From contig NZ_CP029639.1 of NCBI RefSeq assembly GCF_003268635.1, positions 879,501 to 943,500 on the forward strand: a DNA stretch of 64,000 nt. The letters are read 5' to 3'. Positions 9,917 through 31,743 of the stretch are shown one piece after another; positions within the stretch are counted from its first letter, which is position 1, and each line of letters begins with the position of its first letter. The notes below the pieces were generated by a model. It had not been told where the DNA came from. It saw only the letters and a list, made by a program, of their open reading frames with translations, and did not search any database. This DNA is from Paenibacillus sp. DCT19 (lineage in GTDB: Bacteria; Bacillota; Bacilli; Paenibacillales; Paenibacillaceae). Made by a program: the position numbers and the translations under genes.

Positions 9917-9937
9917 ACGTTGAAGGGAGGACATGAG

Positions 9938-11439: not shown

Positions 11440-11644
11440 AAAATAACCTCCATCTTCAACCATTCTATAAAAGTTAAATATCTCATTGTAATTATTCGAC
11501 TTAAAGTAAAAAATACCTCCCTTAATAAATATTTCTTAGCAGATTTAGTCGAAATTTGTAGTATGATTTAGTTTAGCAAGGGTAGCTCGGAACCAAAAGT
11601 GGTGTTATAATTAATAATGCATTGCATAGAAGAGGTGATGTCAA

Positions 11645-12184
11645 ATTAAATACTTAACAATTGTAGCTTATTTAGTAGCTATTGTTTCATCAAACGTTGT
11701 GACGGCAGGAGTAGCCCCGTTTTTTATCGGTCCCTTCATCATTCCAGCGGGGACTTTTATTATTGGGGCAACATTTATTTTCCGTGATTTTGTGCAAAAT
11801 TTTGTGGGTCGGCGTAAGACTTACTTGCTTATTTTAATAGCAATGATTTTGTCAGCATTAACATCGTATCTACTTGGAGATACACTCTGGATTGTATTTG
11901 CTTCAATTATTACATTTGCGGTATCTGAGACCACAGATACAGAAATCTATTCTCGTCTTAAATTACCTTTTCATTTAAGGGTAGCGTATAGTGGAATTGT
12001 CGGTGGAGTCTTAGATAGTATTATTTTCGTTGTTATTGGTTTATCACCATTGGGCGCTAATATTCTTCCATGGAATGCTGTGTTCTTAGCTATCGTTGGT
12101 CAAATTATTGTTAAGACATTAGTTCAATTAGTTGCTGCAATTATTGTTAAACAAATTTTCTTTAAGCAAGGAAAAGTTATTTGA
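11645..12184 (+). CDS. VUT/YhhQ-family 7-deazapurine precursor transporter, apparent ATT start
   Basis: Integral membrane protein of the VUT family (PF02592, the YhhQ-type preQ0/preQ1 transporters). It should carry a queuosine or 7-deazaguanine precursor across the cytoplasmic membrane. Family features include the N-terminal helix KYLTIVAYLVAIVSSNVVTA, GTFIIGATFIFRDFVQ, and several further helices ending in a basic tail. No ATG, GTG or TTG precedes the first helix in frame. AGAGGTG at 11631-11637 is spaced seven bases from an ATT at 11645, which would give MKYLTIVAYL, the normal family N-terminus (179 residues). The GTG at 11699 would delete most of helix 1. It heads the deazaguanine gene set. 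Either ATT is used as a rare start or the start codon has mutated. Confidence 0.8.
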   Translation: MKYLTIVAYLVAIVSSNVVTAGVAPFFIGPFIIPAGTFIIGATFIFRDFVQNFVGRRKTYLLILIAMILSALTSYLLGDTLWIVFASIITFAVSETTDTEIYSRLKLPFHLRVAYSGIVGGVLDSIIFVVIGLSPLGANILPWNAVFLAIVGQIIVKTLVQLVAAIIVKQIFFKQGKVI

Positions 12185-12211
12185 AAATAGGGCGTTCTCG
12201 CCCTATTTTAT
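12184..12211 (+). terminator. Terminator between the transporter and the first TGT gene
   Basis: AAAATAGGGCG and CGCCCTATTTT form a perfect 11-bp stem with a TTCT loop, overlapping the transporter stop codon. The next gene begins only about 20 bases on, so it can act as an attenuator that lowers expression of the genes behind it. Confidence 0.8.
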
Positions 12212-12229
12212 ATTGTGTTAAAGGATGGG

Positions 12230-14266
12230 ATGTTTTTGTCAAACCGTATTCTTGTTGTGACTTCTTGTACTGGAGAGAAGTTACATAAACCTATAAATCA
12301 GCTTGTATTTGACGATTTTCATAATAAAGAAGTATTGAGAAGAAGAGAAGAAGAATTATTGGAATTTAAAGAACGTGCTGATGAAATGTACACTGGTAGT
12401 CAACATCTTGCGCTAATGAGTGGTATTAAAGAATACCGTCAACAAGGGGGAGACATTGATCTTTGCATTATTTCAGCGGGTTACGGCCTCTTGAATGAAG
12501 ATGAACAAATTGTTCCTTATGAAGTAACTTTTAATTCGATGGATTCACAGTCTATAAAAAGATGGGCGCGGGAACTCAAAATTACTCAGGCACTCCAAAC
12601 AAAAATTGCAGAATATGATCTTATTTTTTTCTTGCTCGGAGATAAATACTTACAAGCTGTGGAATGGCCACTGAAGCTTGATAGCAATCAAAAAGCTATC
12701 TTTTTCGCGGGAGCATCCAGTCGTGCTAGAATTTTAAATTGGGATGGTTATCATGTACTAACTATTGGTGAAAAAGAAGCTAAAACCTTTAGATATGGAT
12801 TAATCGGAATTAAAGGCTATCTTTTTGCACAATTATTAAGAAATGTTATTACAACAGATATTGATCAGAAATGGAGCACCATAATAGATCATCCAGATCA
12901 AACTAGATCATTTATTTTAGATTCCATTGCTTCAACTAAACAACTAGAGTTATTTAATGAAACATCGGATAGTGAAGATCTATTAAGGTTTTATAGTGAA
13001 ATGTTCCCTGTTCCGGATGAATTGGTTGCTATAAATTGTATTGAGGAGCCAAGATTTTATCTTCCAGAGAATGATGACAGGGTAGATCCTAAATATGATT
13101 TTATGACTGATTTCTCAGAAAAAAACAGAAATCCATTGGAAAATGATGTGTATGCTCACCAGATATTCGATAGACCACAGTTTGATGGGTTACTTGTCTC
13201 TAAAGTAAACATTGATAGTGCTACCAAACAAAAAAATCAGATGATTGAAGAAATGGGTTTGCACGATTTTTATAAACTACCTAGAGAGTATCCTATAATG
13301 GGTGATTGCGGTGCTTTTAGTTATATTGATAAAGATGTACCACCGTATACAACCGAAGAAATTATGGATTACTATCATACATTAGGTTTAGATTATGGTG
13401 TATCTATTGATCATCTGATAGTTGGCCCATTTCAAAAAGATGAAAACATTCGAAATCAGCGTTATCAATTGACCCTTACGATGGCGGAAGAGTTTTTACG
13501 TATGTATAGAGAAAGAAAAGAAATAATGAATTATCAGTTTCATCCGATAGGTATAGTCCAAGGATGGGACCCGCCTTCTTTCCGAAGAGCGGTTGAGCAT
13601 CTTATTGGATTAGGTTACGATTATGTTGCCTTAGGTGGTTTAGCCAGAGAACAATCAGAAAAAATATATGAAATTTTAAAAGAAATAGCACCTATTATTC
13701 CAAGTCCCACGTTTCGAATGCACTTATTTGGTGTTGCACGAGATGTGAGAACAATGGAGGCATTTCATAAGTTGGGTGTGACATCTTTTGACTCTTCTTC
13801 ACCATTGAGAAGAGCATGGTTAGGAACCGGGCATAATTACCACACCTTAAATGGAAAACACTACACAGCGATAAGAATTCCGGAGGCAAAGGAAACATCT
13901 GGACGAGTGAAAAAAATGTTGCAAAATAGTGATGAAATAGGTTTTGCTGAGTATAAAAGACTCGAACAAGAGGCTCTGGGTGCTCTTAGGGAGTTCAGTG
14001 CAGGCACAAGAGAGTTAGATTCAACGCTTGAAGCCATACTGGAATATGACAAAATACTTGGTGAAAAGCGTGAAGTTCATGAGGACATGTATAGAGAGGT
14101 TCTATCTGAACGACCGTGGGAGCAATGTAATTGTAATATATGCAGGGAAATTGGAATTGATGTAATTGTATTCAGGGGCAACAATAGGAACAGACGAAGA
14201 GGCTTCCATAATACCCATGTATATTACAGTCAAATTCAGGAATTAAAGAAACGGTGGAATAAATAG
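12230..14266 (+). CDS. DpdA-like tRNA-guanine transglycosylase paralog with DUF6884-like N-terminus
   Basis: This protein of about 678 residues has an N-terminal domain (about 1-165, ILVVTSCTGEKL, MYTGSQHLALMSG, LCIISAGYGLL) resembling DUF6884. The C-terminal half has the TGT fold. Seen are the DSGGFQ-equivalent MGDCGAFSY (base Asp about 359), the nucleophile motif VTSFDSSSPLRRAW (Asp about 521) and a zinc site CNCNIC (Cys 633, 635, 638) with HNTH (His 660/663). TGTs exchange a guanine for a 7-deazaguanine in tRNA, and DpdA proteins do so in DNA. The nearby queCDE and helicase genes favour DNA. Start choice is uncertain: ATG 12230 has AAGGAT only 3-4 bases away, TTG 12236 is better spaced, and GTG 12215 is possible. 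A 20-bp palindrome follows the stop. Confidence 0.8.
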   Translation: MFLSNRILVVTSCTGEKLHKPINQLVFDDFHNKEVLRRREEELLEFKERADEMYTGSQHLALMSGIKEYRQQGGDIDLCIISAGYGLLNEDEQIVPYEVTFNSMDSQSIKRWARELKITQALQTKIAEYDLIFFLLGDKYLQAVEWPLKLDSNQKAIFFAGASSRARILNWDGYHVLTIGEKEAKTFRYGLIGIKGYLFAQLLRNVITTDIDQKWSTIIDHPDQTRSFILDSIASTKQLELFNETSDSEDLLRFYSEMFPVPDELVAINCIEEPRFYLPENDDRVDPKYDFMTDFSEKNRNPLENDVYAHQIFDRPQFDGLLVSKVNIDSATKQKNQMIEEMGLHDFYKLPREYPIMGDCGAFSYIDKDVPPYTTEEIMDYYHTLGLDYGVSIDHLIVGPFQKDENIRNQRYQLTLTMAEEFLRMYRERKEIMNYQFHPIGIVQGWDPPSFRRAVEHLIGLGYDYVALGGLAREQSEKIYEILKEIAPIIPSPTFRMHLFGVARDVRTMEAFHKLGVTSFDSSSPLRRAWLGTGHNYHTLNGKHYTAIRIPEAKETSGRVKKMLQNSDEIGFAEYKRLEQEALGALREFSAGTRELDSTLEAILEYDKILGEKREVHEDMYREVLSERPWEQCNCNICREIGIDVIVFRGNNRNRRRGFHNTHVYYSQIQELKKRWNK

Positions 14267-14267
14267 T

Positions 14268-14310
14268 ACGCAAATATGCCTTAGTGTGGTACACTAAGGC
14301 ATATTTGCGT
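14268..14310. other. Perfect 20-bp palindrome with 3-base loop
   Basis: The arms 14268-14287 and 14291-14310 are exact reverse complements over 20 bp, beginning ACGCAAATATGCC, with only GGT between them. It lies between the first TGT gene and the next gene. No T tract follows, so it is not a classic terminator. It could be an mRNA-stabilising hairpin, a terminator of another type, or a binding or recognition site for a protein of the system. Confidence 0.75.
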
Positions 14311-14323
14311 TGGGGGAAATTCC

Positions 14324-15112
14324 ATGCTCTTTACTTTTGAAAACGTAAGCAATTTAACGAGAAAGCACAATGAGGTTTATTTTACTGTCTTGTCCCTAGG
14401 TCTAATCAAAGATTGGGGATTTCCAGTAGTTCAGTCTGATGTAGTTGGCGAAGATGTCGTTCTAGTCAACTATGATACTGTTGTAAGTTTAATTGATAAC
14501 AAACTACAAGTGAAAAATCCACAATTTACATACAAACTGCCGAATGGTAGTAAGAATGATGAATATGTTGTTCTCATTGTATCTGAAGTACAACAGTTTC
14601 CGAGTTACTGTGTTCATCAACTAATGGCTTATCAACGCTTTGAAAGGTTAATAGAGAGAGGAGAAAAAATAAGTAGTAACTCCACTAAATTAATGACCAT
14701 CAGATCGTTGCATGGCATTTTTGAGGATTTTTTAAACTATCGGATTGAGCGTAGTCTATATCCTCAATTAGCCAAAGATTTAATCAGGTACGTTGATTCC
14801 TTAATGAATGATTATCCTGAATTAGGATACCTCTCTGTAGTACAAAGGAAACAATTTCGAAAAAAATCTATTGGTGATTCCTCAATAGCGTGGTATTGCT
14901 ATATTAGGTATTTCATTGAACAATGGATTACTGGTTCTCAAATTTTGCCGCGGCCATTGTTATTAAATGAATTTCAATATGAAAATTGGACTGGAAACTT
15001 CTTTGACAGAGATAATCCTGTCTTACATGTAAATAATGGTCGATTTAAATTTAATGATGAACAACGCGGATTAATATATGAAATATGGAGACAATGGATA
15101 AAAGAAGCCTGA
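14324..15112 (+). CDS. Unknown 262-residue protein between the two TGT genes
   Basis: I do not recognise this protein. It is soluble and mixed alpha/beta. The N-terminal third is rich in valine strands (LGLIKDWGFPVVQSDVVGEDVVLVNYDTVVSLI). A middle helical part contains YRIERSLYPQLAKDLIRYVDSLM. The C-terminus is aromatic-rich (SSIAWYCYIRYFIEQW). It has no membrane segment and no nucleotide-binding motif. The ATG has GGGGGAA upstream. Its place between the two TGT paralogs, set off by the palindrome before it and a terminator overlapping its stop, suggests a dedicated component of the modification machinery, for example a partner subunit. That is inference from position only. Confidence 0.75.
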   Translation: MLFTFENVSNLTRKHNEVYFTVLSLGLIKDWGFPVVQSDVVGEDVVLVNYDTVVSLIDNKLQVKNPQFTYKLPNGSKNDEYVVLIVSEVQQFPSYCVHQLMAYQRFERLIERGEKISSNSTKLMTIRSLHGIFEDFLNYRIERSLYPQLAKDLIRYVDSLMNDYPELGYLSVVQRKQFRKKSIGDSSIAWYCYIRYFIEQWITGSQILPRPLLLNEFQYENWTGNFFDRDNPVLHVNNGRFKFNDEQRGLIYEIWRQWIKEA

Positions 15113-15127
15113 GGGCTTCTTTTTTTT
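15101..15127 (+). terminator. Terminator overlapping the end of the 262-residue gene
   Basis: AAAGAAGCC and GGCTTCTTT flank a TGAG loop containing the stop codon, followed by a T run. It is a strong and compact terminator. Confidence 0.85.
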
Positions 15128-15159
15128 ATATTTTTAGAGTAGTTATACGAAGAAAAATA

Positions 15160-15195
15160 TGCTAAAATCCTAATTATCACGTATAATCACGTATA
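15160..15195 (+). promoter_or_regulatory. Candidate extended -10 promoter and 10-bp tandem repeat before the second TGT gene
   Basis: TGCTAAAAT at 15160-15168 is a good extended -10 element. It is followed by two exact tandem copies of ATCACGTATA at 15176-15195, ending just before the ribosome site. The preceding terminator makes an independent promoter necessary here. The repeat could be an operator. Confidence 0.4.
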
Positions 15196-15210
15196 AGAGG
15201 AGGGCGAGAT

Positions 15211-16143
15211 GTGGATTTTTATATTGGTTGGTCACATAGTGATGCAATTTTTTGTGACTACTTTCCTACGTGTCCGGTGTTAATAAGTGCAATTCCAGAC
15301 AATAGAGGAGGAGTAAAGAAGTATAGAAACAAACCCCAAAAGTTAATAATAGATTGTGGATCAGTTTTCTATGTTAAACAAAAAAGTAGGCCGCCGCTAA
15401 AAGATGTTTTTAATATTCAACAATCAATCTTGGAAGATTGTGATTCAACGGCGAATATTCAATTGGTTCATTTTGACGAACCTCTGCTGAATAAGAGTTC
15501 TTTATCTGAACGTTATATGGCTATTGAAAGAACGCTATTTAATGCCTACGAATATTTAAATCTCTTTAATAGGTATAAGGTTCCTAAATTTGTGGAACCA
15601 ATGGGAGTAATACAAGGTTATGACCAAGCTAGTATAGAGTTTTCAGCCTATGAGTTAATTAAGATGGGATATACAAATTTCGGGATCGGGTCCTTGTTAT
15701 TTAAACATCAGACTGAACAGATTGAAATGATTAGGAGAGCTGTAGATGTTGTTGGAGCTGCCAACCTTCACGTCTTTGGAGTAACGGGGATTCCTCAACT
15801 TCATGCGATGGTTGATATTGGAGTAAAGTCATTTGATTCAACTCGACCAACAATGGCCGCTGCATTCTTTCAGGTATTTTACAGTAGACCATTTAGAACT
15901 TTTTTTCTGCCTGAATCCAGAGCAAAACCCACAAGCCCTCGATTGGAAAATCCACTTCATTGTGAGTGTCCTGTATGTGAAATTAATGCAAAACAGATTT
16001 TTATTCCTTCACCAAGAGAATATATGAAGTTAAGATCAGTCCATAATTATTATCATTTATCCAGAACATTTAAAGATATTTTAGAAAATAAGCAGAGGAG
16101 GTACAAAAATGTTGTTCCAGATGTGTTACGGACCAGAAATTGA
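15211..16143 (+). CDS. Second, shorter TGT/DpdA-like paralog
   Basis: This 310-residue protein has a compact TGT fold. IIDCGSVFYV (Asp48) corresponds to the DSGGFQ base motif and GVKSFDSTRPTM (Asp209) to the nucleophile motif. The zinc ligands are HCECPVC (Cys 251, 253, 256) and His 278/282. VEPMGVIQGYD resembles IGIVQGWD of the first paralog. All key residues seem present, so it may be active on its own or pair with the larger paralog, as heterodimeric TGTs do. The GTG start has GAGGAGG seven bases upstream. An ATG two bases earlier is in another frame. The gene overlaps the next by 35 bases, so it starts a coupled operon. Confidence 0.8.
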   Translation: MDFYIGWSHSDAIFCDYFPTCPVLISAIPDNRGGVKKYRNKPQKLIIDCGSVFYVKQKSRPPLKDVFNIQQSILEDCDSTANIQLVHFDEPLLNKSSLSERYMAIERTLFNAYEYLNLFNRYKVPKFVEPMGVIQGYDQASIEFSAYELIKMGYTNFGIGSLLFKHQTEQIEMIRRAVDVVGAANLHVFGVTGIPQLHAMVDIGVKSFDSTRPTMAAAFFQVFYSRPFRTFFLPESRAKPTSPRLENPLHCECPVCEINAKQIFIPSPREYMKLRSVHNYYHLSRTFKDILENKQRRYKNVVPDVLRTRN

Positions 16144-16885
16144 AGTAATTTATGAGGAACTAAGATCTAAGCCTGGAATGGATACAAATGAACTGAAAAC
16201 AAAATTCCAGTATAGGGAAGAGGGGGATATTACCTCTTTAATCGAGTGTGCCTTGACGATATTAGAAGATTTGCAATTTATATATAAAGACAAAACACAA
16301 TTTTATGTGTCACAAAATCAAGTTTGGACTAACAAAGAAGTTTTTCTAAGGTTAAGGGAAATCTCAAATTCTACTAATATACCTAGCGATGCTCTTGATC
16401 ATATATTTGCGTCTATTTTTGAACAGTTGTTTGTAAAGCCAGATAGACTATTTGTAAGCAATATTCATTACCAAGTTAATAGTCAGTTAATGAAGACAGT
16501 AGTTGGTCATGAAAAAATAAATGCATGGAAGCGAATGATGGAATGTTGGGGATTGGGAAGACGTGTCTACTCTGGTTTTTACGCCCTTCCACAACTCTCA
16601 TTAATGAAAAGTATCATTGAAAGAAGTGAGACATGGGAAGGTGGGTTACATCTATTTTGTGAAAAATTTGTTCATCCAGTTATTCCGTGCTTGACATCAG
16701 AAGGGAAAATATACAAGGGAATTATTTTTTCATTAATGGGATTAGCTGAGGCAGGGGAAATAGAATTGAGTTATGTGCAAGATCTTCCCTATAAATCTTA
16801 TGGGCCAAAAAATACACTGAACTGGATTAAAGTCGAGGGGAGATGTGACACTAATGCTTCCTTGTCTCAACAAAAATTCGCTTAA
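16109..16885 (+). CDS. Winged-helix-like protein of unknown function in the TGT operon
   Basis: I do not recognise the family. The first 70 residues of this 258-residue protein (VIYEELRSKPGMDTNELKTKF, ALTILEDLQFIYKDKTQFYV) read like a winged helix-turn-helix ending in a beta wing. The rest is helical, with tryptophans in the middle (INAWKRMMECWGLG). The start has GAGGAGG eight bases upstream. It overlaps the TGT gene before it (35 bases) and the ATPase gene after it (41 bases), so the three proteins are probably made together. A small winged-helix protein before a large ATPase recalls the dpdG-dpdH order of Dpd clusters. That equivalence is a guess from size and order, not from shared motifs. 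Confidence 0.7.
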   Translation: MLFQMCYGPEIEVIYEELRSKPGMDTNELKTKFQYREEGDITSLIECALTILEDLQFIYKDKTQFYVSQNQVWTNKEVFLRLREISNSTNIPSDALDHIFASIFEQLFVKPDRLFVSNIHYQVNSQLMKTVVGHEKINAWKRMMECWGLGRRVYSGFYALPQLSLMKSIIERSETWEGGLHLFCEKFVHPVIPCLTSEGKIYKGIIFSLMGLAEAGEIELSYVQDLPYKSYGPKNTLNWIKVEGRCDTNASLSQQKFA

Positions 16886-19800
16886 ACTTTTAGCAGGTAC
16901 TGCAGATGAACGATATGACCAATCACCTGAATACTTCAGAAAAACGCACTTTCCGCAAGTAATGCATAGGTATAATGATAGTCAGTTAGTCGCTGAAGTT
17001 ACAGAAGATGAACTGCTGGATGAACTTCAAGAAACTGATGCTAGCGGTAACAGAGTTTATTTAGTTTTTGGTTCCACAGGATCGGGAAAATCGGAACTGC
17101 TTCGTTGGTTAAAAGATAAGTGGTTAGTGGAAGTACCAGGTAGACCCGTGATACGAATTTCACGAACAGAGCTAAATCCTCAGATCTTAATTAAAAAATG
17201 TTTAGACACACTGAATTTATCCTTGGATGTTTGTATTGATGAAGACAGGTGGGGGATTTTGCTTAAAAAGCCTATAACGCTTGTTAACCAAATGATTTGG
17301 ACAACATTAGCAGAAGCTATGGAGTCCGATGAGGAGATCGTTCCAAGCGCACTATTATTAAGGCCAGTGATTGAGCAAAATATTATTGATTTTACATCAC
17401 AAGTCAAACGAGGAAAAATTAAAAATCCACTAGAGGTACTGCATCGGGAACAGTTTGAAACCTTGCTCGCCAATACAACCCTTCATATCCCATTAGAATA
17501 CGCAGCATTTCGACAAAATCTCTCGCGGCAGTTAGACCATTTTCTTTTTGAAGGACAAGATATCGGAACCCTTTTTAAACAAATATCTTTGCAGATAAAA
17601 AACAGAGGAATCCGTCCTTTGTTATTGATTGATGATTTAGTTCAATCAGTAAATATTTACGCAACCAGTATCCTTGATCAACTTATTACATTGGAAGAAG
17701 GAAACTGGGATGTGGTCATTGGCTTAACACCTGGTGCAGTTCAGGATACAGAGAAGGGGTTTAGTCTCACACAAAGAATACAGAATCTTGATACGATTAA
17801 TGATCGTGTAAAAAAGTTATGGCTATCGGATGAGTCGGGGAAAGACTTTTTCAATCTTGATCGTAAGCAGGTAGTACCATATATGGCAAATTATCTTACC
17901 CAACTGAAAGCGACACAGGGGTTCAGTTGCTCTCTCCAATGTCCGCATTTCAAACAATGCTCTGCTTTTCTGCCAGAGGAAAGCAACAATGTTAATTGTC
18001 TTGAAGTTCAGTTACTCCCATTCAATAGTCATATGCTAAGACGCACATTCGATGCTATCCCTGTAGGAAAAGGTAAATTACGTTACATGATATTGAATAG
18101 CAAGGAAATCCTACGTTTCTTTCTAAAAGGTAAAAAGCATATTAGTAGAGTTCTTCCACTTATACGCAGGGAAATGTTTGCGGATCATGAAGATATGTTT
18201 ATTAAAACACTATCTGAGTGGTATGCGTCTGAAGATGCAAGTCAAGTGATAATTTCTGAACCTTTGTTAAAGCACTTTGGTTATAGCGAAAACCAAATAT
18301 CTATTAAGTTAAACAAGATAGCAGCAGGTAATACAAGGGAAGAACAACCGCTTCATATAGAGAATAAAAATGATAATGCTGTCTTCAATGAAAAAGAGGT
18401 AGTCAGAGATTGGGTAGAAGGAAAAGAAGTAAACGATGAACTATTATTACCTGTTAGATCAGGAGTGGCCGCTCTGGTACATGATGTGATAAAGGGGGTA
18501 CATATGAACCGCTCATTCACCTCTCGAACCTCCTCAGTTATTCAATGGAATGAAGTTGTAAATCGAACGCGATATCCTATTAAACTAGACAAAAATGATG
18601 ATGAGTTCTTTATAAATGTAAATCGTGATTATGTTGGCATTCAAATATCCAACTTTCAAACGATGAAGTATTCAGAAAAATCAAATATATTTCAAAAAAT
18701 CTCAAATGAGTATGAAATCTCAAAGTGGATATATCAGGGAGAAAGTATTCATAAATTATGGATTGAATCTCTTGAACAGGCTCTTGGGTTGAAGTTACCT
18801 GTATTTGTGTATGGAATGAGGAATTGGGCGCAACAAGCTAGAATATATAGTGAATCTTTATGGATTTTCGATGCGAAAGAAAAATCTCCCTTCAATAAAG
18901 ACTTAATGTCATTACTTGATGAGTGTTATTCAGATTGGTATTTGTTACGTGAAAATTTTTATGAGACACCAAATGATGAGGTATTAACGGATGAAGAATT
19001 CGATCAATGGTTATTAAATTTTGTACCTTCTAAAAAGTTGGAAAGCTATATAATAGGCAATCTAACCTTGAAGGATTTCCTATCAAATTTAAAACAAAGC
19101 TATAGTGGTTATCTTGAGTTGCTTCATCAAAGCTTTAGGCAATCGATTGAAAAAAGACTAATGATGATACCATTTCTAATAGGTTCTAGTAGAGCAGAAT
19201 GGATTAAACTTGCAGACCAAATCTATATTTTTAACGAAAAGAAATCTCTTCGACAACAAGATCTTGTGAACTATACGCTGCTTGAACAACAATTAGAACA
19301 ACCAGAGTTAGTCATCCAATTTAATAGGTTCTTTGCTTTAAACAATGAAGTTGATCAGTTATTAAAACAATTTGACCATGATTTAATGGATGTAGTTGAC
19401 TTCCTTATTGAGTGTGGTATGCATATGAATCATGAAGAAGTCGGAGAAGAAATTGTTGATAATAGTAAGTTCTCTTTGCCTGAATTAGAGGAGAGAAAAA
19501 GGATAATTCTAGCTAATATGCAAAAGGTATCAGATCTAAAAAACTGTCTTGCTTTAACTCCACGTACTATAGTTAATTATTTGTTCAATATTCAAGTCCA
19601 ATTAGAAATTCTAAAGCCAATTAAGGAACTTCAGTTGAAAATGATTGCATGTGTTGAACTATTATTGGAGGGTTCACAGATTGAATCTAAACTCAATTCC
19701 GTAATTGATGAGTGGCAGTCGATGGACTTTTATGAATTAAAAGAACTGGTTGAAAGAAAACTTCAACATGAGCAAATCCAGATAAACCTTCTTGAAGTCA

Positions 19801-20036
19801 TTCGAAATGATCTTGAATATGAAGACGTTGGGAATATCTATCATCTGCTAGAAATAATAAATCACAATTCTCAAATCAGGCCTTCTATAAAAAGACATAT
19901 TAGATTGCTCATTGAGAATGGTTATAGTACCCTTCCACCAGTTCAGGGTAAGCGTTTATTAGAAGAGATTAAAGAGAAGTTTCCTAATCTGTTTGAAGTT
20001 GTAGAGATAAGATTAGTTGTGGGCAACGATAAATAG
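16845..20036 (+). CDS. Large P-loop ATPase with cysteine cluster (DpdH-like by context)
   Basis: This 1063-residue protein has an AAA/STAND-like ATPase domain: Walker A FGSTGSGKSELLRW (about residue 75) and Walker B PLLLIDDLVQS (about 258). A cluster CSLQCPHFKQC (Cys 362, 366, 372) plus Cys 385 may hold zinc or an iron-sulfur centre. The long C-terminal part (about 480-1063) is helical and not recognised. The GTG start at 16845 has GAGGGGAG close upstream and overlaps the preceding gene by 41 bases. Large ATPases of this kind couple sensing to effectors in restriction systems, and DpdH is a large ATPase of the Dpd cluster. The assignment here is contextual. Confidence 0.75.
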   Translation: MTLMLPCLNKNSLKLLAGTADERYDQSPEYFRKTHFPQVMHRYNDSQLVAEVTEDELLDELQETDASGNRVYLVFGSTGSGKSELLRWLKDKWLVEVPGRPVIRISRTELNPQILIKKCLDTLNLSLDVCIDEDRWGILLKKPITLVNQMIWTTLAEAMESDEEIVPSALLLRPVIEQNIIDFTSQVKRGKIKNPLEVLHREQFETLLANTTLHIPLEYAAFRQNLSRQLDHFLFEGQDIGTLFKQISLQIKNRGIRPLLLIDDLVQSVNIYATSILDQLITLEEGNWDVVIGLTPGAVQDTEKGFSLTQRIQNLDTINDRVKKLWLSDESGKDFFNLDRKQVVPYMANYLTQLKATQGFSCSLQCPHFKQCSAFLPEESNNVNCLEVQLLPFNSHMLRRTFDAIPVGKGKLRYMILNSKEILRFFLKGKKHISRVLPLIRREMFADHEDMFIKTLSEWYASEDASQVIISEPLLKHFGYSENQISIKLNKIAAGNTREEQPLHIENKNDNAVFNEKEVVRDWVEGKEVNDELLLPVRSGVAALVHDVIKGVHMNRSFTSRTSSVIQWNEVVNRTRYPIKLDKNDDEFFINVNRDYVGIQISNFQTMKYSEKSNIFQKISNEYEISKWIYQGESIHKLWIESLEQALGLKLPVFVYGMRNWAQQARIYSESLWIFDAKEKSPFNKDLMSLLDECYSDWYLLRENFYETPNDEVLTDEEFDQWLLNFVPSKKLESYIIGNLTLKDFLSNLKQSYSGYLELLHQSFRQSIEKRLMMIPFLIGSSRAEWIKLADQIYIFNEKKSLRQQDLVNYTLLEQQLEQPELVIQFNRFFALNNEVDQLLKQFDHDLMDVVDFLIECGMHMNHEEVGEEIVDNSKFSLPELEERKRIILANMQKVSDLKNCLALTPRTIVNYLFNIQVQLEILKPIKELQLKMIACVELLLEGSQIESKLNSVIDEWQSMDFYELKELVERKLQHEQIQINLLEVIRNDLEYEDVGNIYHLLEIINHNSQIRPSIKRHIRLLIENGYSTLPPVQGKRLLEEIKEKFPNLFEVVEIRLVVGNDK

Positions 20037-20090
20037 TCAACTTTCGATAAAATAGTACATCTGTTATCATTAAGGGAGAATGGTGAGAAA

Positions 20091-20774
20091 GTGGGTAAGA
20101 TTATGAAACAAAAAAACAGAAAAGCCGTTGTAGTTTTTAGTGGCGGTCAAGATAGTACAACTTGTTTGTTTTGGGCAATGAAGCACTTTGACGAAGTTGA
20201 AGCAATCACCTTTAGTTATGGACAAAGGCATGCTTTAGAAATTGAATGTGCTAAACAAATCGCTGATGAACTGGGAGTAAAGTGGACGCTACTTGATATG
20301 AGCCTGCTCGGTCAACTAACTCAGAATGCTCTGACGCGGAATGATCTCGAGATTGTTCATAATGATGGTGAACTTCCGAGCACATTTGTGGAAGGGCGAA
20401 ATCATTTGTTTTTAAGTTTCGCCGCCGTGTTTGCTAAAGGAGTAGATGCTAGACATATTGTAACGGGCGTCTGCGAGACAGATTTTAGTGGGTACCCTGA
20501 CTGCCGGGATGATTTTGTCAAATCCCTAAATGTGACGTTAAATTTAGCGATGGATCATAATTTTATCATCCATACTCCGTTAATGTGGATTGATAAAGCA
20601 GAGACGTGGGAAATGGCAGATCAATTAGGGGCGTTTGAATTTGTACGCCAAAAGACTTTGACTTGTTACAACGGTATTATCGGTGATGGATGTGGTACTT
20701 GTCCTGCTTGCCAGTTGAGAAAAGCGGGTTTGGATAAAATTTTGCAAGGAAAAAATTCGGAGCAAAAGTTATGA
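20091..20774 (+). CDS. queC: 7-cyano-7-deazaguanine synthase QueC
   Basis: QueC makes preQ0 from 7-carboxy-7-deazaguanine, ATP and ammonia. The PP-loop ATPase motif [14 protein letters not shown] lies at about residues 12-25. The zinc site near the C-terminus is [17 protein letters not shown] (C-x8-C-x2-C-x2-C). [12 protein letters not shown] is the usual substrate loop. The length of 227 residues is typical. The start is uncertain: GTG 20091 has GGTGAG four bases upstream, and ATG 20103 is possible. The stop TGA overlaps the queD ATG (ATGA). No QueF follows, so the pathway as encoded ends at preQ0, which is the base Dpd systems insert into DNA. Confidence 0.95.
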
Positions 20775-21262
20775 ATAAAATACCAGGGCAATTCGTCATT
20801 GTAGATGCATTGCAAAAGTTTAAAGAGGATATTACTCATGAACAGTTGAAATATCATCAGCGCAGAGTATTAGTCAGTAAAGAATTTACTTTTGACGCGG
20901 CGCATCACTTACATGCATATGAGGGTAAATGTAAAAATCTACATGGTCACACCTATAAAGTTGTATTTGGAGTGAGTGGATATACAAATGAAATTGGAAT
21001 GACGATAGATTTTGGAATGATAAAAACAATTTGGCGTGAGCAAATAGAGCCATATTTAGACCACAGATATCTAAATGAGACGTTGCCGTTAATGAATACG
21101 ACTGCTGAAAATATGGTCGTTTGGCTTTATGAGCAGATGGAAGCAGCCCTAAGTACTGATAAATACTCATCAAAAGACGTGGATGCAAGAACTGAATTTG
21201 TCCGGTTATTCGAAACTCCAACCAGCTATGCCGAAGCAAGACGGGAGTGGATGGCAGATTGA
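20771..21262 (+). CDS. queD: 6-carboxy-5,6,7,8-tetrahydropterin synthase QueD
   Basis: QueD converts dihydroneopterin triphosphate to 6-carboxytetrahydropterin, the second step to preQ0. The zinc histidines are in FDAAHHLH and HGHTY, the catalytic cysteine is Cys54 ([11 protein letters not shown]), and MTIDFG and DHRYLNE complete the active site. The N-terminal extension of about 35 residues ([16 protein letters not shown]) is usual in Bacillales QueD. It is translationally coupled to queC, and the end of the gene lies next to the queE start. FolE, which supplies the substrate precursor, is not in the island and must come from the host. Confidence 0.95.
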
Positions 21263-21267
21263 CTCAC

Positions 21268-21993
21268 ATGGAAAAGCCCATCCCGGTTCTAGAAATATTT
21301 GGTCCAACTGTTCAGGGAGAAGGTCTGGTTATTGGACAAAAAACAATGTTTGTTCGAACGGCCGGCTGTGACTATTCCTGTTCATGGTGTGATTCCTCCT
21401 TTACATGGGACGGTTCTGCAAAGAATGAAATTAAACAATTATCTGCCCAAATGATTTGGGATGAATTAATCAATCTTGGTGGAAATACTTTCGAGCATGT
21501 AACCATCTCTGGTGGTAATCCAGCACTCTTAAAGAATATTGGATACCTAGTGGATTTGCTTCACGATCAAGGAATTCGAGTTGGGTTGGAAACGCAAGGA
21601 AGCAGATGGCAAGAGTGGATGGCAGATATTGATGACTTGACGATATCTCCGAAACCACCAAGTTCAGGAATGATAACTGATTGGGATAAATTAGACGAGG
21701 TTATGGAGAACTTAAAAAATAGTTCAAATGAAATATGTATTAAAGTAGTTGTTTTTGATGAAGATGATCTTCAGTATGCAGTACGTGTTCATAAACGATA
21801 CCCTCACATGAGGTTGGTTTTGCAGGTAGGTAATAGCGATGTAACAACAGCAGATAGAGAAGGATTGGCGTCTGCTTTATTAGAGAAGTATGAATGGTTG
21901 ATTAATCAAGTCATGGCTTCCTCAGATTTGAGACAAGTTAAAGTTCTCCCGCAATTACACACTTTGTTGTGGGGTAATAAGCGTGGGGTTTAA
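21268..21993 (+). CDS. queE: 7-carboxy-7-deazaguanine synthase QueE
   Basis: Radical SAM enzyme that contracts 6-carboxytetrahydropterin to 7-carboxy-7-deazaguanine. The cluster motif CDYSCSWC (C-x3-C-x2-C) follows QKTMFVRTAG, VTISGGNPALL is the SAM glycine motif, and LTISPKPPSSG is conserved. ATG 21268 gives MEKPIPVLEIFGPTVQGEG, the family N-terminus. An in-frame GTG at 21247 lies inside queD and lacks proper spacing. The product has 241 residues. It is the last gene of queCDE, and a terminator follows 11 bases after the stop. Confidence 0.95.
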   Translation: MEKPIPVLEIFGPTVQGEGLVIGQKTMFVRTAGCDYSCSWCDSSFTWDGSAKNEIKQLSAQMIWDELINLGGNTFEHVTISGGNPALLKNIGYLVDLLHDQGIRVGLETQGSRWQEWMADIDDLTISPKPPSSGMITDWDKLDEVMENLKNSSNEICIKVVVFDEDDLQYAVRVHKRYPHMRLVLQVGNSDVTTADREGLASALLEKYEWLINQVMASSDLRQVKVLPQLHTLLWGNKRGV

Positions 21994-22003
21994 AGAGAAG
22001 ATA

Positions 22004-22036
22004 AAGAACATTCCTAATGGGAGTGTTCTTTTTTTT
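22004..22036 (+). terminator. Terminator of the queCDE operon
   Basis: AGAACATTCC pairs with GGAGTGTTCT (one wobble) across a short loop, followed by eight T. Confidence 0.85.
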
Positions 22037-22154
22037 CTCAAAAAAGTTTTCAGGGTGACGCTAAAAGAGTAGTTCTATCTTCCTATGAGCGTAAATTATG
22101 GTAATATGTAAAAAAGATGAAGCTTGCAAAAATTTAAAGAGTAGGAGGGCTTTA

Positions 22155-25028
22155 ATGCCTTACTTATGTACGTATGAAAATTCTCGACCATCTGATGCAT
22201 TAATTAAACAAGAGTTGATTGCGGGTAGATCCTATTTATATGTCACTGCAACAAAAGCACTAGCTTATGAACGTAGAGGTCTAATTAAGGATACACAAAT
22301 CTGGGACGATAAAAGGTGTGTCTTGTTTAATGATTTTCTTAAAGGATCTTTGAAACAAGAAGGTATTAAGTTTGCGACACGCGGAGAGGAAAAAACCTTT
22401 TTAAAAAGAGCTTTAGAAGAAGTAGCTGCTGACAATACGTTGTTACTTGATTTGTTTCTTAAGGACACAAGTTCTTTTTTGCGTGTTTTTTATGATTTAG
22501 CAGCCCAAGGGATTGATCTGCGTTACAAATCTCTTCCGCAGGAAAAAATAGATTTGCTTGTAAATCCAGAATTGGGTAGGCATTTGATCGCAATACATAA
22601 TTCATTTCATAATGAAATGGAAGCAAAAAATCGAGAGCTATTTGAAACTGCTGCTAGGAAGTTTCTGCTTAATACTTTTGCTCCAGAATCAGTTGTGATA
22701 ATGGAGGGATTTACATTTTTTACTGAGCTACAGAAGCTTTTTGTTCAAACTTGTTTGAACAAAGAAATTCAACTATATTTTGTTGCTCCCTTAAATCCTA
22801 ATCAACCTAAAGGGTTTGAAATAATAAGCAACACCTATAGTTCTGTTCCGAATATTACAAATAAGGTTCTGGAGACTGAACCTAATAGTAAAAAAGAAGA
22901 TTTAAACTTTTTGCAGTTAAATCTATTTTCTGATAATACATTGAAATACACAGGGGATACTTCAAATATTATCATAAAAAAATATCCAAATCGTGACAGA
23001 GAAATGTTAGCTTGTATTGACCAACTGCAAGTTTGGTTCGCAGACAAAACGTACAAACCTGATGATGTAGTAATTGTTATGAGAAGATCTAAAGAATTTA
23101 TTGATCGTTTTAGAGACCACTTAGCGATGAACCCTCTATTAATTTATCCGGACAGTTCTTCAGAACCAATTCCGGTTACATTATCAATTCAACCTCGATT
23201 GTTGTTACTCACACCAGTTGGCCGTTTTGTGTTGACTTTGTACCGTATATGGGAAGATGGAAATTTAAAGTTGACAATGGACGAACTGGAGACAATTTTG
23301 GCTTCGGGTTGGCTTGGGCCGCGGTTGCAAGATTCAGCATCGTTGTTTCGCTCTGTAAAACATCAATATTTTAGTAATTGTGAAACTCAGGAACAGTGGA
23401 ATTCGGTCTTGGAGCAACTTATTCTGAAACATAAAACACAATATAAAAGATTACCTTTACATTTAATTGAACTTGATCATCATACATTAGCAAGGTGGAA
23501 GGAAGTTGTTTCACTTCTAGAAAGCGCATGTGTTCGGTTGTTTGTTAGAGGGCAAAAAACAATTGCATCTCATATTGAGTTGTTGCAAGCTGAAATGAAA
23601 AAATTATTACCAAAACGGCTTCGTCGTGAAGAACAAGAAGTTCTAGAACAAATTCAAAAAGTATTCGAAGAACTTGGGAGCTATTATTCTATAGATATTA
23701 CATCAAGTGAATTTGGAGAGGCAATCCACGCTCTAACTCGGGGTACTACTGAGCAGGAGGAGGAGGAAGATGAGGATAACAACAACGATAACGACAATCA
23801 TGGCAAAGAAGATTACCGATTAAGCATTGTAACTCCAGAAATATTGGATGGAATCAACAAGCCAGTAGTTATGTATGTATCTGTTGACAGTCAGCACTCT
23901 CCAGTATTGTACTCTGAATCATGGCCTTTTTATGAAGACAATCGAGAGAATCATATGATGAAAGAACGTTATATGTTCTTAACCGTAATTCGTTCTGCCA
24001 GTGAAAAGCTTTGGTTATCATACTCTAGCAAGGATGGGGAACGTGCATTTCAAAAAAGTGTTTATTTTGGCGAGATTGAAAGGTTAATGAATAAGCCCAT
24101 TGAAGTTAGTAGTATTTTTGATCAAATAGATGCCTCACTTGCTAAAGTTTCACCTGTCTTTCCCCCTCCGCCTGCAGCACGAAGAAAAAGATATGAATTA
24201 AATGAGCTTGCCCATTACGGATTATGTCCGCTGCGATATCGTTTAGAACTATTGCATCCAGAAGCAATGGTTTACCGTACTGAATGGCAACTTAATATTG
24301 TGGCACAAGGAATTTGGTTAGATAAAATTTATGCAAGTCTAGCACAATATACAGGTGAATGGCCAAATCCGAGAAGGCTAAGATTAGACGGTGAGAAGAT
24401 AGCAGGATTGTACCGCTTTCTTTTGGAAGCCAAAAAGCGTGTTAAGGATCAAGTAACAGAGTTGTTCCCAACTTTCGATCCTAAGACATGGGTAGCCGTT
24501 GAACGTCAAGTTGAAGACGAACTTCAATTTCATGCAAGTAAGCGTGGACTGTACCCAGTAAGAATAATTGATGGAGAGAGTGAAGAATTTGATGTCACAC
24601 TTCCTAGTGATGATAACAAAATTATTTCGTTCAATGTGCCTAACTATTTGAATTCTGGAATCCTGACTATTCCGTTATTAGATTATGAACTAAGCCATGA
24701 ATGGCTTCTGAGTTCCACAAAAAAACAAGATGAAACCCGTGCTGAATCAATTATGATGAAAGATATTGATGGTGTAGATGTATTTGAAACATTATTTGAT
24801 GCTGTTTCTTGGTGGAGGTTAGCTATCCAAGCCCATGTAATCGAAAAATTCCAATACAAAGACAATGATTACACTAGAAAAATACTTTTGCACAAAGATC
24901 CATCGGAAGAACAACTAGCAAACTGGATAGTTTCTATAGAGGATAATAAGTTTCCAAAACATGCTGGTGAACATTGCACTACTTGTCCAGTTCGTATGGA
25001 ATGTTTGGGAATTGGAGGAGGAGAATAA
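22155..25028 (+). CDS. AddB-like protein with C-terminal Fe-S nuclease fold
   Basis: This protein of about 957 residues resembles the AddB subunit of the AddAB helicase-nuclease. The N-terminal part looks like a degenerate helicase (YLYVTATKALAYERRG). The C-terminal domain carries the four-cysteine iron-sulfur pattern of AddB nucleases: one Cys in HYGLCPLRYRLELL and three in HCTTCPVRMEC (C-x2-C-x5-C) at the very end. Between them I could not find a convincing PD-(D/E)xK triad (LLDYELSH stands where DYK might be), so nuclease activity is in doubt. An acidic E/D/N-rich tract lies at about 23757-23810. The start is ATG 22155, with GGAGGG five bases upstream. An in-frame ATG at 22098 lacks a ribosome site. 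It is followed after one base by its helicase partner. Confidence 0.75.
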   Translation: MPYLCTYENSRPSDALIKQELIAGRSYLYVTATKALAYERRGLIKDTQIWDDKRCVLFNDFLKGSLKQEGIKFATRGEEKTFLKRALEEVAADNTLLLDLFLKDTSSFLRVFYDLAAQGIDLRYKSLPQEKIDLLVNPELGRHLIAIHNSFHNEMEAKNRELFETAARKFLLNTFAPESVVIMEGFTFFTELQKLFVQTCLNKEIQLYFVAPLNPNQPKGFEIISNTYSSVPNITNKVLETEPNSKKEDLNFLQLNLFSDNTLKYTGDTSNIIIKKYPNRDREMLACIDQLQVWFADKTYKPDDVVIVMRRSKEFIDRFRDHLAMNPLLIYPDSSSEPIPVTLSIQPRLLLLTPVGRFVLTLYRIWEDGNLKLTMDELETILASGWLGPRLQDSASLFRSVKHQYFSNCETQEQWNSVLEQLILKHKTQYKRLPLHLIELDHHTLARWKEVVSLLESACVRLFVRGQKTIASHIELLQAEMKKLLPKRLRREEQEVLEQIQKVFEELGSYYSIDITSSEFGEAIHALTRGTTEQEEEEDEDNNNDNDNHGKEDYRLSIVTPEILDGINKPVVMYVSVDSQHSPVLYSESWPFYEDNRENHMMKERYMFLTVIRSASEKLWLSYSSKDGERAFQKSVYFGEIERLMNKPIEVSSIFDQIDASLAKVSPVFPPPPAARRKRYELNELAHYGLCPLRYRLELLHPEAMVYRTEWQLNIVAQGIWLDKIYASLAQYTGEWPNPRRLRLDGEKIAGLYRFLLEAKKRVKDQVTELFPTFDPKTWVAVERQVEDELQFHASKRGLYPVRIIDGESEEFDVTLPSDDNKIISFNVPNYLNSGILTIPLLDYELSHEWLLSSTKKQDETRAESIMMKDIDGVDVFETLFDAVSWWRLAIQAHVIEKFQYKDNDYTRKILLHKDPSEEQLANWIVSIEDNKFPKHAGEHCTTCPVRMECLGIGGGE

Positions 25029-25029
25029 G

Positions 25030-27324
25030 ATGAGTGGAGAAATTTCTATTATATTTGAGAACAATAAACGTGGAGGGATCGAACTTTCAGCAGAGCAGCA
25101 GTGTATAGTTGATAGTGTAATTGGTTCAGATAAGATAACAGTTGTTTCTGCCGGAGCCGGTTCTGGTAAGACGAGGGTGATGGTAGCTACTGTATTACAT
25201 TTGATAGATACTTTTCGAGGTGAAACATCTATAGATGATTTTGCCCTCATCACGTTTACTAATAAAGCTACTGATGAGATGCGTGAACGCCTTGAAGAAG
25301 GTGTTGAAAATTTGTTAAAGAAGTCGGAACTAGAGGGTAACGAACAAGAGCGTAAATTTTGGCTCGCACAGAAAGAAAGATTATCATCTACTTTTATTGG
25401 AACTATTCATGGTTTCTGTTCCATGATGCTTAAAACGTTTGGTTACCAGGAATACGTTCCGCACGAAACAGAAATTTTGATTGCCCGCAGACATTTTCTT
25501 GGAGCCTTAGATGATACAATGAACTATGCTTTAGAAAATGCAGAGATGTCAGTATTGTTTCAATCTAATAAAATACCTTGGGCTATACATGAAATGCGTT
25601 CAAAATTAGAAGAATGGTATGAACGGGTACGTGGAAATGGTAGGAAAATTGAAGATCTCTACAATGAAACAGTAAATCAACCAAATGATGATGGGAAAGA
25701 ATATCGTGTGGCAATTGCTGCCTTTTTAAATAATTTAGACAAGAGATATAAGAATATTAAAGAGTCTTTAGGCGGGGTTGATTCCAATGATTTACTTCAT
25801 AAGACTGCAACTATGATGCAGCAAAATGGAAGTACTATTGCCCCCCTTTTAGGGCGCAGATTCCAATACCTCTTTGTGGATGAATTTCAAGACACAGATC
25901 GCTTACAAAAAACAATAATTGATCAATTAATTCAAGAACTAAGACATGTCCTAGTTGTAGGAGATCGTAAACAGGCTATTTATGGGTTCCGCGGCGCAGA
26001 TGATTCAATTATTAAACAGATGGCTGAGGAAAATGGTGTGCCTATGTTGTCATTAAATGCTTCTCGTCGCCCAACAAAGCCGTTAAACGAGGCTCAATCA
26101 GCACTATTCGACAGTATGGGGGAACGATACAGTGTGATGAAAGATGTACTAGTTACCCCAAATGAAGCACATGTACCAAAGGATAGTATGGTTCCATTTC
26201 AGTATTATCATGTTTACAGTCGTAATAAAAACGAATGGGTGGAGGAATCCATAAAGCGAATTGAAATGTTTTTAAGTCAAGAGATAGATGTCCCTCGAAA
26301 GGGTCTGTGCAATGTGCAATATAAAGACATTTGCGTTCTATTTCGTTCGAATAATCAGATGCTTGATTATGAGCAACAATTCGCGAAACTTGCGCCAGAT
26401 ATTCCAGTTGTAACAGATATTAGCGGAGGTTTTTTTCAAAGAGATGAGATAGTAAATTGCTACTATATGTTGCAAGCAATGATGAAATATCGTGATGATG
26501 TTTCCTTAGACCTTGCATTAGGGACACCATTTTTACCTTTTAAGGCGCCGGTTCATATTTATCGCCAAACTGACTCAGTAACTCCTTTATGTGATTGGTT
26601 TGAGGGAACACCTGAATGTTTGGATTGGTATAAAGGAATAAAGGAATTCAGGAAACGGATTAAAATTGAACTTGTTCCGCAATTATTGATTCGTTTATAT
26701 GAATTCACAAAAATTAGAGAATATTATAAATCAAAAGGGAATGCTCAAGCTGTAGCAAATCTTGAGAAACTCGTGATGTGGTCAAGAGAACAGATGAATG
26801 CTGAAGCCTTGACGATGCAGCAGTTCTTAGAACGGTTCCAAAATGCATTTTTAACAGGGCTAGCAATGGATGATGCTGAAGTGGACGAAGAAAACCAACA
26901 AGTGAAAAATGCAGTAAGGTTTTCAACGGTTCATGCGGCAAAAGGCTTAGAATATCCTATAGTTATTATTCCTAATATCGAGAGACCTTTGTTAAATGAT
27001 GAACAGAAGCCCGAATTTTTTGATATTGATGAAGAGAATTGGGGATTGGATTTATGTCTTCGAGGAGAAAAGGGAATGTCATCTCGTTATCAAGAATGGA
27101 TTGAAAAATATAATCAAAATCATTTGGAGGAAGAAGCCCGAATATTTTATGTAGCTGTTACTCGGGCTCAACATGTAGTGTGCATGATCAGTGGCGGAGA
27201 CTATTTGAAGCAGAATAAAATGGGTTCGATTAAATGGTGGTCTTGGAAAGACGAAGTGTTATCGGCGTATAGTAAACTTACAGCATTAGGGTCAGAAAAG
27301 GTTTTACTCCCTAGTATTAAATAG
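25030..27324 (+). CDS. UvrD/AddA-like superfamily 1A helicase
   Basis: ATP-dependent DNA helicase of 764 residues. Motifs in order: SAGAGSGKTRVMV (Walker A, about residue 40), TFTNKATDEM (Ia), GTIHGFCSMM, YLFVDEFQDTD (Walker B, about 283), GDRKQAIYGFRGAD (III), STVHAAKGLEYPIVI (V) and EEARIFYVAVTRAQ (VI). It lacks the C-terminal nuclease domain of AddA. The ATG at 25030 has GGAGGAGG eight bases upstream, inside the end of the preceding gene, so the pair is coupled. With the AddB-like protein it probably forms a helicase(-nuclease) complex, a likely restriction or processing arm of the deazaguanine system. Confidence 0.9.
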   Translation: MSGEISIIFENNKRGGIELSAEQQCIVDSVIGSDKITVVSAGAGSGKTRVMVATVLHLIDTFRGETSIDDFALITFTNKATDEMRERLEEGVENLLKKSELEGNEQERKFWLAQKERLSSTFIGTIHGFCSMMLKTFGYQEYVPHETEILIARRHFLGALDDTMNYALENAEMSVLFQSNKIPWAIHEMRSKLEEWYERVRGNGRKIEDLYNETVNQPNDDGKEYRVAIAAFLNNLDKRYKNIKESLGGVDSNDLLHKTATMMQQNGSTIAPLLGRRFQYLFVDEFQDTDRLQKTIIDQLIQELRHVLVVGDRKQAIYGFRGADDSIIKQMAEENGVPMLSLNASRRPTKPLNEAQSALFDSMGERYSVMKDVLVTPNEAHVPKDSMVPFQYYHVYSRNKNEWVEESIKRIEMFLSQEIDVPRKGLCNVQYKDICVLFRSNNQMLDYEQQFAKLAPDIPVVTDISGGFFQRDEIVNCYYMLQAMMKYRDDVSLDLALGTPFLPFKAPVHIYRQTDSVTPLCDWFEGTPECLDWYKGIKEFRKRIKIELVPQLLIRLYEFTKIREYYKSKGNAQAVANLEKLVMWSREQMNAEALTMQQFLERFQNAFLTGLAMDDAEVDEENQQVKNAVRFSTVHAAKGLEYPIVIIPNIERPLLNDEQKPEFFDIDEENWGLDLCLRGEKGMSSRYQEWIEKYNQNHLEEEARIFYVAVTRAQHVVCMISGGDYLKQNKMGSIKWWSWKDEVLSAYSKLTALGSEKVLLPSIK

Positions 27325-27490: not shown

Positions 27491-27527
27491 ATGGCTACTA
27501 CAATATATAACTGTGGTAGTCATTTTT
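27491..27527 (+). terminator. Terminator after the helicase pair
   Basis: ATGGCTACTACA and TGTGGTAGTCAT form a 12-bp stem (two wobbles) around a 9-base loop, followed by TTTTT. An in-frame ATG of the next gene at 27513 lies inside this hairpin, which argues against that start. The rest of 27325-27490 holds nothing I recognise. Confidence 0.75.
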
Positions 27528-27605
27528 CACTTTATATTTTTTGTTTTAAAAGGTTACATATTCAAAAAAGAGCATAAAATTAACTTGAAAGAATGGTGGA
27601 AGGTT

Positions 27606-31713: not shown

Positions 31714-31719
31714 ACCTTT

Positions 31720-31743
31720 AAGCCCCTTTAGGGGCTCTTTTAA
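31720..31743 (+). terminator. Terminator of the DUF2075 gene
   Basis: AAGCCCC and GGGGCT(C) flank a TTTA loop, followed by TTTT. From here to 32085 I see no gene. Confidence 0.8.

Follow-up and report, generated by a model that had tools for sequence, protein, structure and literature searches.

The closest described relatives of the gene cluster analysed here are the canonical 7-deazaguanine (Dpd) restriction-modification systems, of the Salmonella Montevideo type and as found on the Enterobacter plasmid pPOL9A (L094). Genes for preQ0 synthesis are commonly linked in Dpd islands, and a 2025 survey of such islands, as set out in its available text, required dpdA together with dpdB and placed 11 Bacillota among 2,335 unique windows (PMC11888242). 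Because dpdB was required too, we infer that this survey would miss islands of the present kind. A preprint on YprA helicases has described uncharacterised Dpd-like classes and named BRIGADE in haloarchaea, a Dpd-like hybrid that has 7-deazaguanine genes, as here, and usually encodes two YprA-like helicases (PMC12458937). The available description of BREX-Related Capture (BRC) gives it a transglycosylase (TGT) but neither DpdB nor DpdC, and proposes that another NTPase stands in for DpdB; the same source had suggested that some clusters can do without DpdB (PMC12839542). Our subject is an island in a 64,000-nucleotide stretch (G000:C1:879501-943500; hereafter the window) of the 6.67-Mb single-contig genome of the soil bacterium Paenibacillus sp. 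DCT19. We consider it a likely DpdB-less variant of the Dpd system, in which a modification core with two TGTs is joined to an AddAB-like helicase pair.

DpdA and a DpdC domain are common to the canonical systems and this core, and the canonical dpdD-K genes are shared with most relatives of the core. The window core differs in that DpdB is absent, the DpdC-like domain forms part of the DpdA protein, and there are a second TGT and a second DpdG/DpdH-like pair; the window genome differs further in its AddAB-like pair and in that DpdG, long DpdH, and DpdJ were not found in it. The literature searched contained no account of a two-TGT core lacking DpdB or of the AddAB-like pair, and a word search of the main text of PMC12458937 returned neither "TGT" nor "transglycosylase" nor "AddB".

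The island consists of eleven tightly packed genes, several of them overlapping and all on the forward strand, at 11645-27324: a VUT-type transporter gene, TGT1, U262, TGT2, U258, a large ATPase gene, queC, queD, queE, and the genes of an AddB-fold protein (AddBl) and a UvrD/AddA-type helicase (UvrDl). A preliminary description made from the letters alone had named these genes in this order, and each was found where expected. It had also called the DNA AT-rich, which agrees with a G+C content of 0.33-0.40 per 2-kb window between 11 and 27 kb (mostly 0.44-0.52 at 1-5 and 38-64 kb).

TGT1 (12215-14266, 683 amino acids) is a fusion of a DUF6884 DpdC-like domain with DpdA. It scores 447.8 bits against the curated DpdA model NCBIfam NF041059 (cut-off 200) and matches the solved DNA-guanine transglycosylase PDB 7ui4 at E = 5.3e-90, residues 279-675 aligning with nearly all of that structure. 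The DpdA domain (13052-14242) has Asp364, Asp526, and a zinc-ligand motif, CxCxxC...H. The N-terminal domain (12365-12697, residues 51-161) scores 49.3 bits against Pfam DUF6884 (cut-off 30) and matches PADLOC DpdC models (best E = 1.3e-11), so DpdC is present as a fused domain and not as a separate gene; the TGT1 profile also picks out, with E = 4.5e-10, the gene that precedes dpdA on the canonical Enterobacter plasmid. Against the tRNA models, TGT1 reaches 30.1 of 350 bits for the archaeal TIGR00432 and is not listed for TIGR00430. TGT2 (15211-16143, 310 amino acids) is, like TGT1, above the Pfam TGT cut-off (50.7 bits, cut-off 26.3), and a profile search gives DpdA 7ui4 as its best solved relative (E = 6.5e-15); it reaches 22.5 of the 306.75 bits required by the bacterial tRNA TGT model TIGR00430. 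In an alignment of the window protein with 19 of the 90 homologues, D48, D209, C251, C253, C256, and H282 are the same in all 20 rows. Both proteins thus retain the DCG/DSG aspartate, the nucleophile-aligned aspartate, and the zinc ligands, positions whose catalytic role we assume from tRNA TGT work. The two TGT-fold enzymes claimed at the outset are therefore both there, with the correction that the first is a DpdC-like/DpdA fusion. In a tree of 42 sequences TGT1 groups with canonical DpdA (100/99), while the 14 core TGT2 rows form a separate clade (99/98), and several closest strain pairs are the same for TGT1 and TGT2.

The two genes behind TGT2 appear related to dpdG and dpdH. U258 (16109-16885, 258 amino acids) aligns with DpdG (hhalign 96.8%, E = 2.9e-10); the DpdG model NF041064 has no match in the window genome, and the homology is a distant one. 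The ATPase (16845-20036, 1063 amino acids, Walker A GSTGSGKS) aligns with DpdH (hhalign 99.4%, E = 7e-22); it scores 34.6 bits against DpdH NF041065 (cut-off 450), across residues 27-108 only, and matches DpdH only at about model positions 20-120. Its other P-loop matches are sub-threshold (HerA DUF87, 15.7 of 23.2 bits; FtsK, 12.7 of 24). What had first been taken for a winged-helix-like protein and a 1063-residue ATPase are present, and by hhalign become a DpdG/DpdH-like pair. U258 and the ATPase look like a second such pair, tied to the TGTs, and probably serve modification and not an effector function. U262 (14324-15112, 262 amino acids), between the two TGT genes, is common in Bacilli copies of the core; it matches no Pfam or PADLOC family up to E = 1, and its AlphaFold2 model (pLDDT 86) has no significant match among solved structures.

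The remaining genes of the upstream part would serve preQ0 supply. The island has linked preQ0 synthesis genes, each above its model's cut-off: queC (20091-20774; TIGR00364, 274.2 bits, cut-off 150.3), queD (20771-21262; TIGR03367, 105.6 bits, cut-off 89.25), and queE (21247-21993; TIGR03365, 374.7 bits, cut-off 206.1). Since a second queC lies at 1.408 Mb beside queF at 1.406 Mb in the same genome, the island queCDE is additional to a chromosomal queC/queF locus; the earlier remark that there is no QueF is true of the island, though not of the genome. The VUT (YhhQ-type) queuosine-precursor transporter (11645-12184) exceeds the Pfam Vut_1 cut-off (61.6 bits, cut-off 27.2) and falls below that of NCBIfam TIGR00697 (42.1 of 50.95 bits). 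Its open frame (11639-12184) has no ATG at the 5' end, and the probable start is a rare ATT at 11645 behind AGAGGTG. The sequence ATT-AAA-TA(C/T) is kept in P. glucanolyticus (L020) and Fontibacillus (L026), and the VUT protein of Paenibacillus sp. 37 (L087) starts with Met. Weak or regulated initiation is possible at such a start.

A profile scan of genome contigs with the TGT2 alignment gave 15 loci, from Paenibacillus, Fontibacillus, Brevibacillus, Bacillus, Ectobacillus, a Bacillota metagenome-assembled genome (MAG), a Clostridiales MAG, and Chloroflexi. U258 and the ATPase lie near TGT2 in 14 of these and TGT1 as well in 13; one of the 15 (L033) is a short contig, and at L030 TGT1 was not seen in the stretch examined. 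The genome search for the same gene order that had been proposed as a check finds the window's order in 11 of the 15 loci. Two Chloroflexi loci have all four core genes, with TGT2 divergent from U258-ATPase-TGT1, and relatives of U262 were found at 8 of the 15. TGT1, TGT2, U258, and the ATPase also occur together in two further genomes (G105 and G081) and on a Deinococcus plasmid. Of 394 genomes assigned to the window's family (treated as Paenibacillaceae), eight have TGT2, and these same eight have a DpdA over its cut-off. The combination of a DpdA fusion, TGT2, a DpdG-like protein, and a DpdH-like ATPase is thus a recurrent variant, found in Bacilli, in Chloroflexi, and on a Deinococcus plasmid.

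Several neighbouring arrangements were seen during this search. Plasmid pART37 of Paenibacillus sp. 37 (L087-L089/L095) holds in one island the core, DpdJ-K-D, DpdE-F-G-H-I-J-K-D, and AddBl/UvrDl, and thus two DpdJ-K-D sets; its public annotation already names TGT1 "DpdA". On the haloarchaeal plasmids L093 and L110, TGT1/DUF6884 genes have a second TGT-like gene beside them together with a BREX ATP-binding protein, and on a Nostoc plasmid (L091) the second TGT-like gene beside such genes lies between two paralogous helicases; all three are probably further two-TGT systems. The two haloarchaeal records, with TGT1-like, DUF6884-like, and TGT2-like genes, presumably represent BRIGADE. The present island differs from them: the haloarchaeal TGT2-like proteins fall outside the TGT2 clade of the 42-sequence tree, and the two YprA-like (DpdJ/ARMADA-type) helicases of BRIGADE (PMC12458937) were not found in the window. 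No DpdJ is over cut-off in its genome and no DpdJ-type protein is among the 14 window proteins scanned, the sacsin-type helicase protein at 4983-9779 giving only 14.2 bits. Of the PglZ, BrxC-like DUF6079, and HerA/FtsK listed for BRC in the available text of PMC12839542, the scanned window proteins likewise gave no over-cut-off match.

DpdB, DpdG, and DpdH were sought in 15 genomes, the window's and those of 14 relatives. No genome has a DpdB (NF041060) that reaches its cut-off; the window genome gives no match to it at all, and its sole sub-threshold match is 40.3 bits in one relative (G396). DpdG is matched in 13 of the 15 (seven over cut-off), and a long DpdH match, covering most or all of the model and distinct from the core ATPase, is present in 13 (six over cut-off, one in two pieces); only the window genome and Fontibacillus lack both. 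Beside the core of chosen relatives, NCBIfam models identified DpdE (944.8 bits, cut-off 500) and DpdF (807.2, cut-off 550) at L022, DpdJ (1805.1, cut-off 800) and DpdK (189.2, cut-off 100) at L025, and DpdD at L027 (319.1, cut-off 300) and L034 (540.1); a DpdJ-like protein at L030 is under cut-off (485.5 of 800 bits). Maps extended by similarity place DpdE-F-G-H-(DpdI-position protein)-J-K-D in a single run of genes in most relatives. Because hhalign links U258 and the ATPase to DpdG and DpdH, and a separate DpdG and long DpdH occur in 13 of the 15 genomes, most of these islands appear to have two G/H-like pairs, one next to the TGTs and the other within the restriction operon. On the simplest reading, the first pair together with TGT2 would fill DpdB's role in modification. 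Since DpdB is nowhere over cut-off, and since DpdG and long DpdH are found elsewhere in 13 of the 14 relatives, the core is best read as a putative DpdB-less modification module with a G/H-like pair of its own. That the layout is not the canonical dpdA-K one, as noted before, is strengthened by relatives that have dpdD-K beside the same core or in the same genome.

No dpdD-K operon was found in the window genome. The DpdH model matches nothing there but the N-terminal part of the core ATPase, and DpdJ gives only short sub-threshold matches; DpdD, DpdE, DpdF, and DpdK were sought among window proteins (14 with PADLOC, ten with NCBIfam). A long DpdH and a DpdJ over cut-off are both missing from three genomes, those of the window, of Fontibacillus, and of another Paenibacillus (G105), and all three have the core with AddBl and UvrDl.

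AddBl (22098-25028; the start of most aligned homologues corresponds to the Met at 22155) has the fold of AddB. The top five Foldseek matches of its predicted model (pLDDT 81, pTM 0.58) are all AddB chains (best E = 2.4e-21, TMq 0.57), its sequence profile finds AddB 3u44_B (E = 1.4e-7), and C710, C960, C963, and C969 do not vary across the 20 aligned rows, which comprise the window protein and 19 of 67 homologues. We liken these four cysteines to the iron-sulphur staple of AddB, from which we presume iron-sulphur binding. UvrDl (24961-27324, with a possible start at Met 25030; Pfam UvrD-helicase, 176.8 bits) has AddA 3u44_A as its best match in PDB (E = 2.7e-29) and intact helicase motifs (GAGSGKT, VDEFQD, QAIYGFR). 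The initial assignment of an AddB/AddA-like pair is borne out by fold and by nearest solved relative alike. Compared with AddAB of known structure (PDB 3u44, 4cei), however, AddBl is far under the AddB equivalog cut-off (TIGR02773, 24 of 903.7 bits) and has no conserved nuclease motif, and UvrDl has no matched nuclease domain; Walker A was not seen in the window AddBl. The NERD domain PF08378 is present, in precomputed annotation, in three of the 67 AddB-like homologues.

The AddBl gene is linked to the core. It occurs in five of the 394 family genomes, all of them among the eight that bear the core (hypergeometric p = 7e-10, with relatedness ignored), and immediately follows the core or queCDE in the window, in Fontibacillus, and in G105, whose AddBl is 44% identical to the window's. 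In Brevibacillus fluminis, Ectobacillus, P. lacisoli, and Paenibacillus sp. 37 it is additional to dpdD-K. A plasmid of Deinococcus taeanensis encodes an AddB-like protein, 27% identical and annotated as NERD domain-containing, which adjoins queC, queD, and a transporter; the plasmid also has TGT1-, TGT2-, U258-, and ATPase-like genes and dpdE, dpdF, and dpdH. With this arrangement the AddB-like protein is connected to 7-deazaguanine systems in more than one phylum. The AddAB-like pair is a Dpd-linked module that some relatives have in addition to dpdD-K and others have by itself. Dpd-like islands in a Chloroflexi MAG, in a Bacillota MAG, and in Scytonema contain or adjoin a second type of helicase pair, a UvrD-like helicase with a partner of 339-439 amino acids (L032:1-3452, L057:13184-16757, and L111:16460-19704).

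The nearest relative of the ATPase outside the window is in Paenibacillus amylolyticus (97%). Between the window and Fontibacillus, the ratio of nonsynonymous to synonymous substitution rates (dN/dS) ranges from 0.066 to 0.192 across the nine genes TGT1 through AddBl (0.18 for AddBl) and is 0.126 for VUT over the 119 codons compared; UvrDl was left out of this comparison. As the differences are mostly synonymous, the island genes look kept by selection. Values are higher for two downstream genes (U617, 0.40; AbiO, 0.38). U617 (27513-29366, forward strand) comes next after UvrDl, likewise in Fontibacillus, and its membership of the system is uncertain. The suggestion that the island sits on the remnant of an integrative element fits with two further genes, a split serine recombinase gene (32550-34312) and one for a short ParA (9920-10600). 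No common word of at least 12 bases was found between 3801-5000 and 31701-36500. The same element holds a further candidate defence gene, the sacsin-type/SF1 helicase protein (4983-9779, 1598 amino acids, TmtA/MkoA-like in PADLOC). The window also has an AbiO/Nhi-like gene (30232-31713; PADLOC, 541 and 542 bits) that is likewise found downstream in Fontibacillus (L056:14477-15403). Three genes of this genome read as two pieces each, namely the housekeeping tgt (G000:C1:5119876-5120936, with two stops inside the first piece) and, in the window, an rlmD-like methyltransferase gene (2707-4478) and the recombinase gene; either real decay or assembly errors may be responsible. The tgt gene is uninterrupted (open frames of 379-395 amino acids), alongside the island enzymes, in all four relatives searched (Fontibacillus, P. 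glucanolyticus, Bacillus sp. V59.32b, and G105).

The analysis establishes what the genes are, that they recur, which of the genes sought are absent, and that the AddBl gene is linked to the core. That the island modifies DNA is very likely; this, the chemistry of the modified base, the roles of TGT2, U258, and the ATPase, and the restriction step are what we infer from these sequences. QueD, QueE, and QueC, together with a presumed host GTP cyclohydrolase (FolE), would make preQ0, and the VUT protein could import it. TGT1 would then swap guanine in DNA for preQ0, and its DpdC-like domain may hydrate preQ0 to the amide (dADG). TGT2 would act with TGT1, as a partner subunit or as a second insertion enzyme, and the DpdG/DpdH-related U258 and ATPase would provide ATP-driven handling of DNA, the part of DpdB in canonical systems. 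In most relatives this module would serve the dpdD-K restriction operon; in the window genome, the AddAB-like helicase pair would be the most likely restricting machine, directed at unmarked DNA.

Several observations weigh against this scheme. AddBl shows no conserved D...(D/E)xK (PD-(D/E)XK) pattern between its cysteines in the 20 aligned rows and UvrDl matches no nuclease domain in Pfam; therefore no intact nuclease was identified in the window's gene set, which is the main gap. AddBl may be an accessory, since some relatives have it in addition to dpdD-K. U258 and the ATPase could equally belong to restriction, and the ATPase of the Deinococcus plasmid that corresponds to the core's scores slightly better with the DpdH profile. 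U262, seen at just 8 of the 15 loci, has no part in this scheme.

More specifically, TGT1 and TGT2 might form a heteromer, loaded or moved by the DpdG/DpdH-like ATPase pair, that writes 7-deazaguanines independently of DpdB, with, in the window's version, an AddAB-like translocase that distinguishes self from foreign DNA by the modified base in place of Chi, unwinding and destroying ends or forks up to the mark; we offer this as a tentative model only. Equally tentative is the idea that the two TGTs are independent insertion enzymes with different bases or sequence targets and separate roles. The retention of the nucleophile-aligned aspartate and the zinc ligands in both proteins, and their placement in separate clades, would suit two independent enzymes, but their co-occurrence in 13 of the 15 loci and in all eight family genomes, and the several closest strain pairs that the two have in common, fit a complex at least equally well.

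A somewhat less probable view, and to us a doubtful one, is that the island only modifies: it would be an orphan protective module whose restriction operon has been lost, and AddBl and UvrDl would serve repair or resection at breaks or stalled forks that arise from the modified base or from Dpd restriction. Such a loss would account for the missing DpdG, long DpdH, and DpdJ, and an accessory role for an AddBl that coexists with dpdD-K in four relatives and does not conserve the nuclease motif. Yet the core with AddBl and UvrDl and without long DpdH or DpdJ occurs in three genomes, across which AddBl identity falls to 44%; AddBl is constrained in sequence; and its distant relatives have a NERD domain. 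That the TGT paralogues and queCDE act on tRNA, in making queuosine or a relative, with the helicases as unrelated defence cargo, is most improbable, as the TGT fold and the two-piece tgt of this assembly are countered by the DpdA score of TGT1 and its distance from the matched tRNA models, by the low tRNA TGT score of TGT2, by the uninterrupted tgt of relatives, and by the over-cut-off dpdD-K proteins beside the core.

If the DpdB-less Dpd reading is right, the modification and restriction halves of Dpd would be separable, as the same module is found with dpdD-K, with dpdD-K and an AddAB-like pair, or with an AddAB-like pair and without DpdH or DpdJ. The core would lend genomic support to the dispensability of DpdB suggested in PMC12839542. 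It would also provide a natural set of two TGT enzymes with a dedicated ATPase, and the reader of the 7-deazaguanine mark would become testable with a short set of genes.

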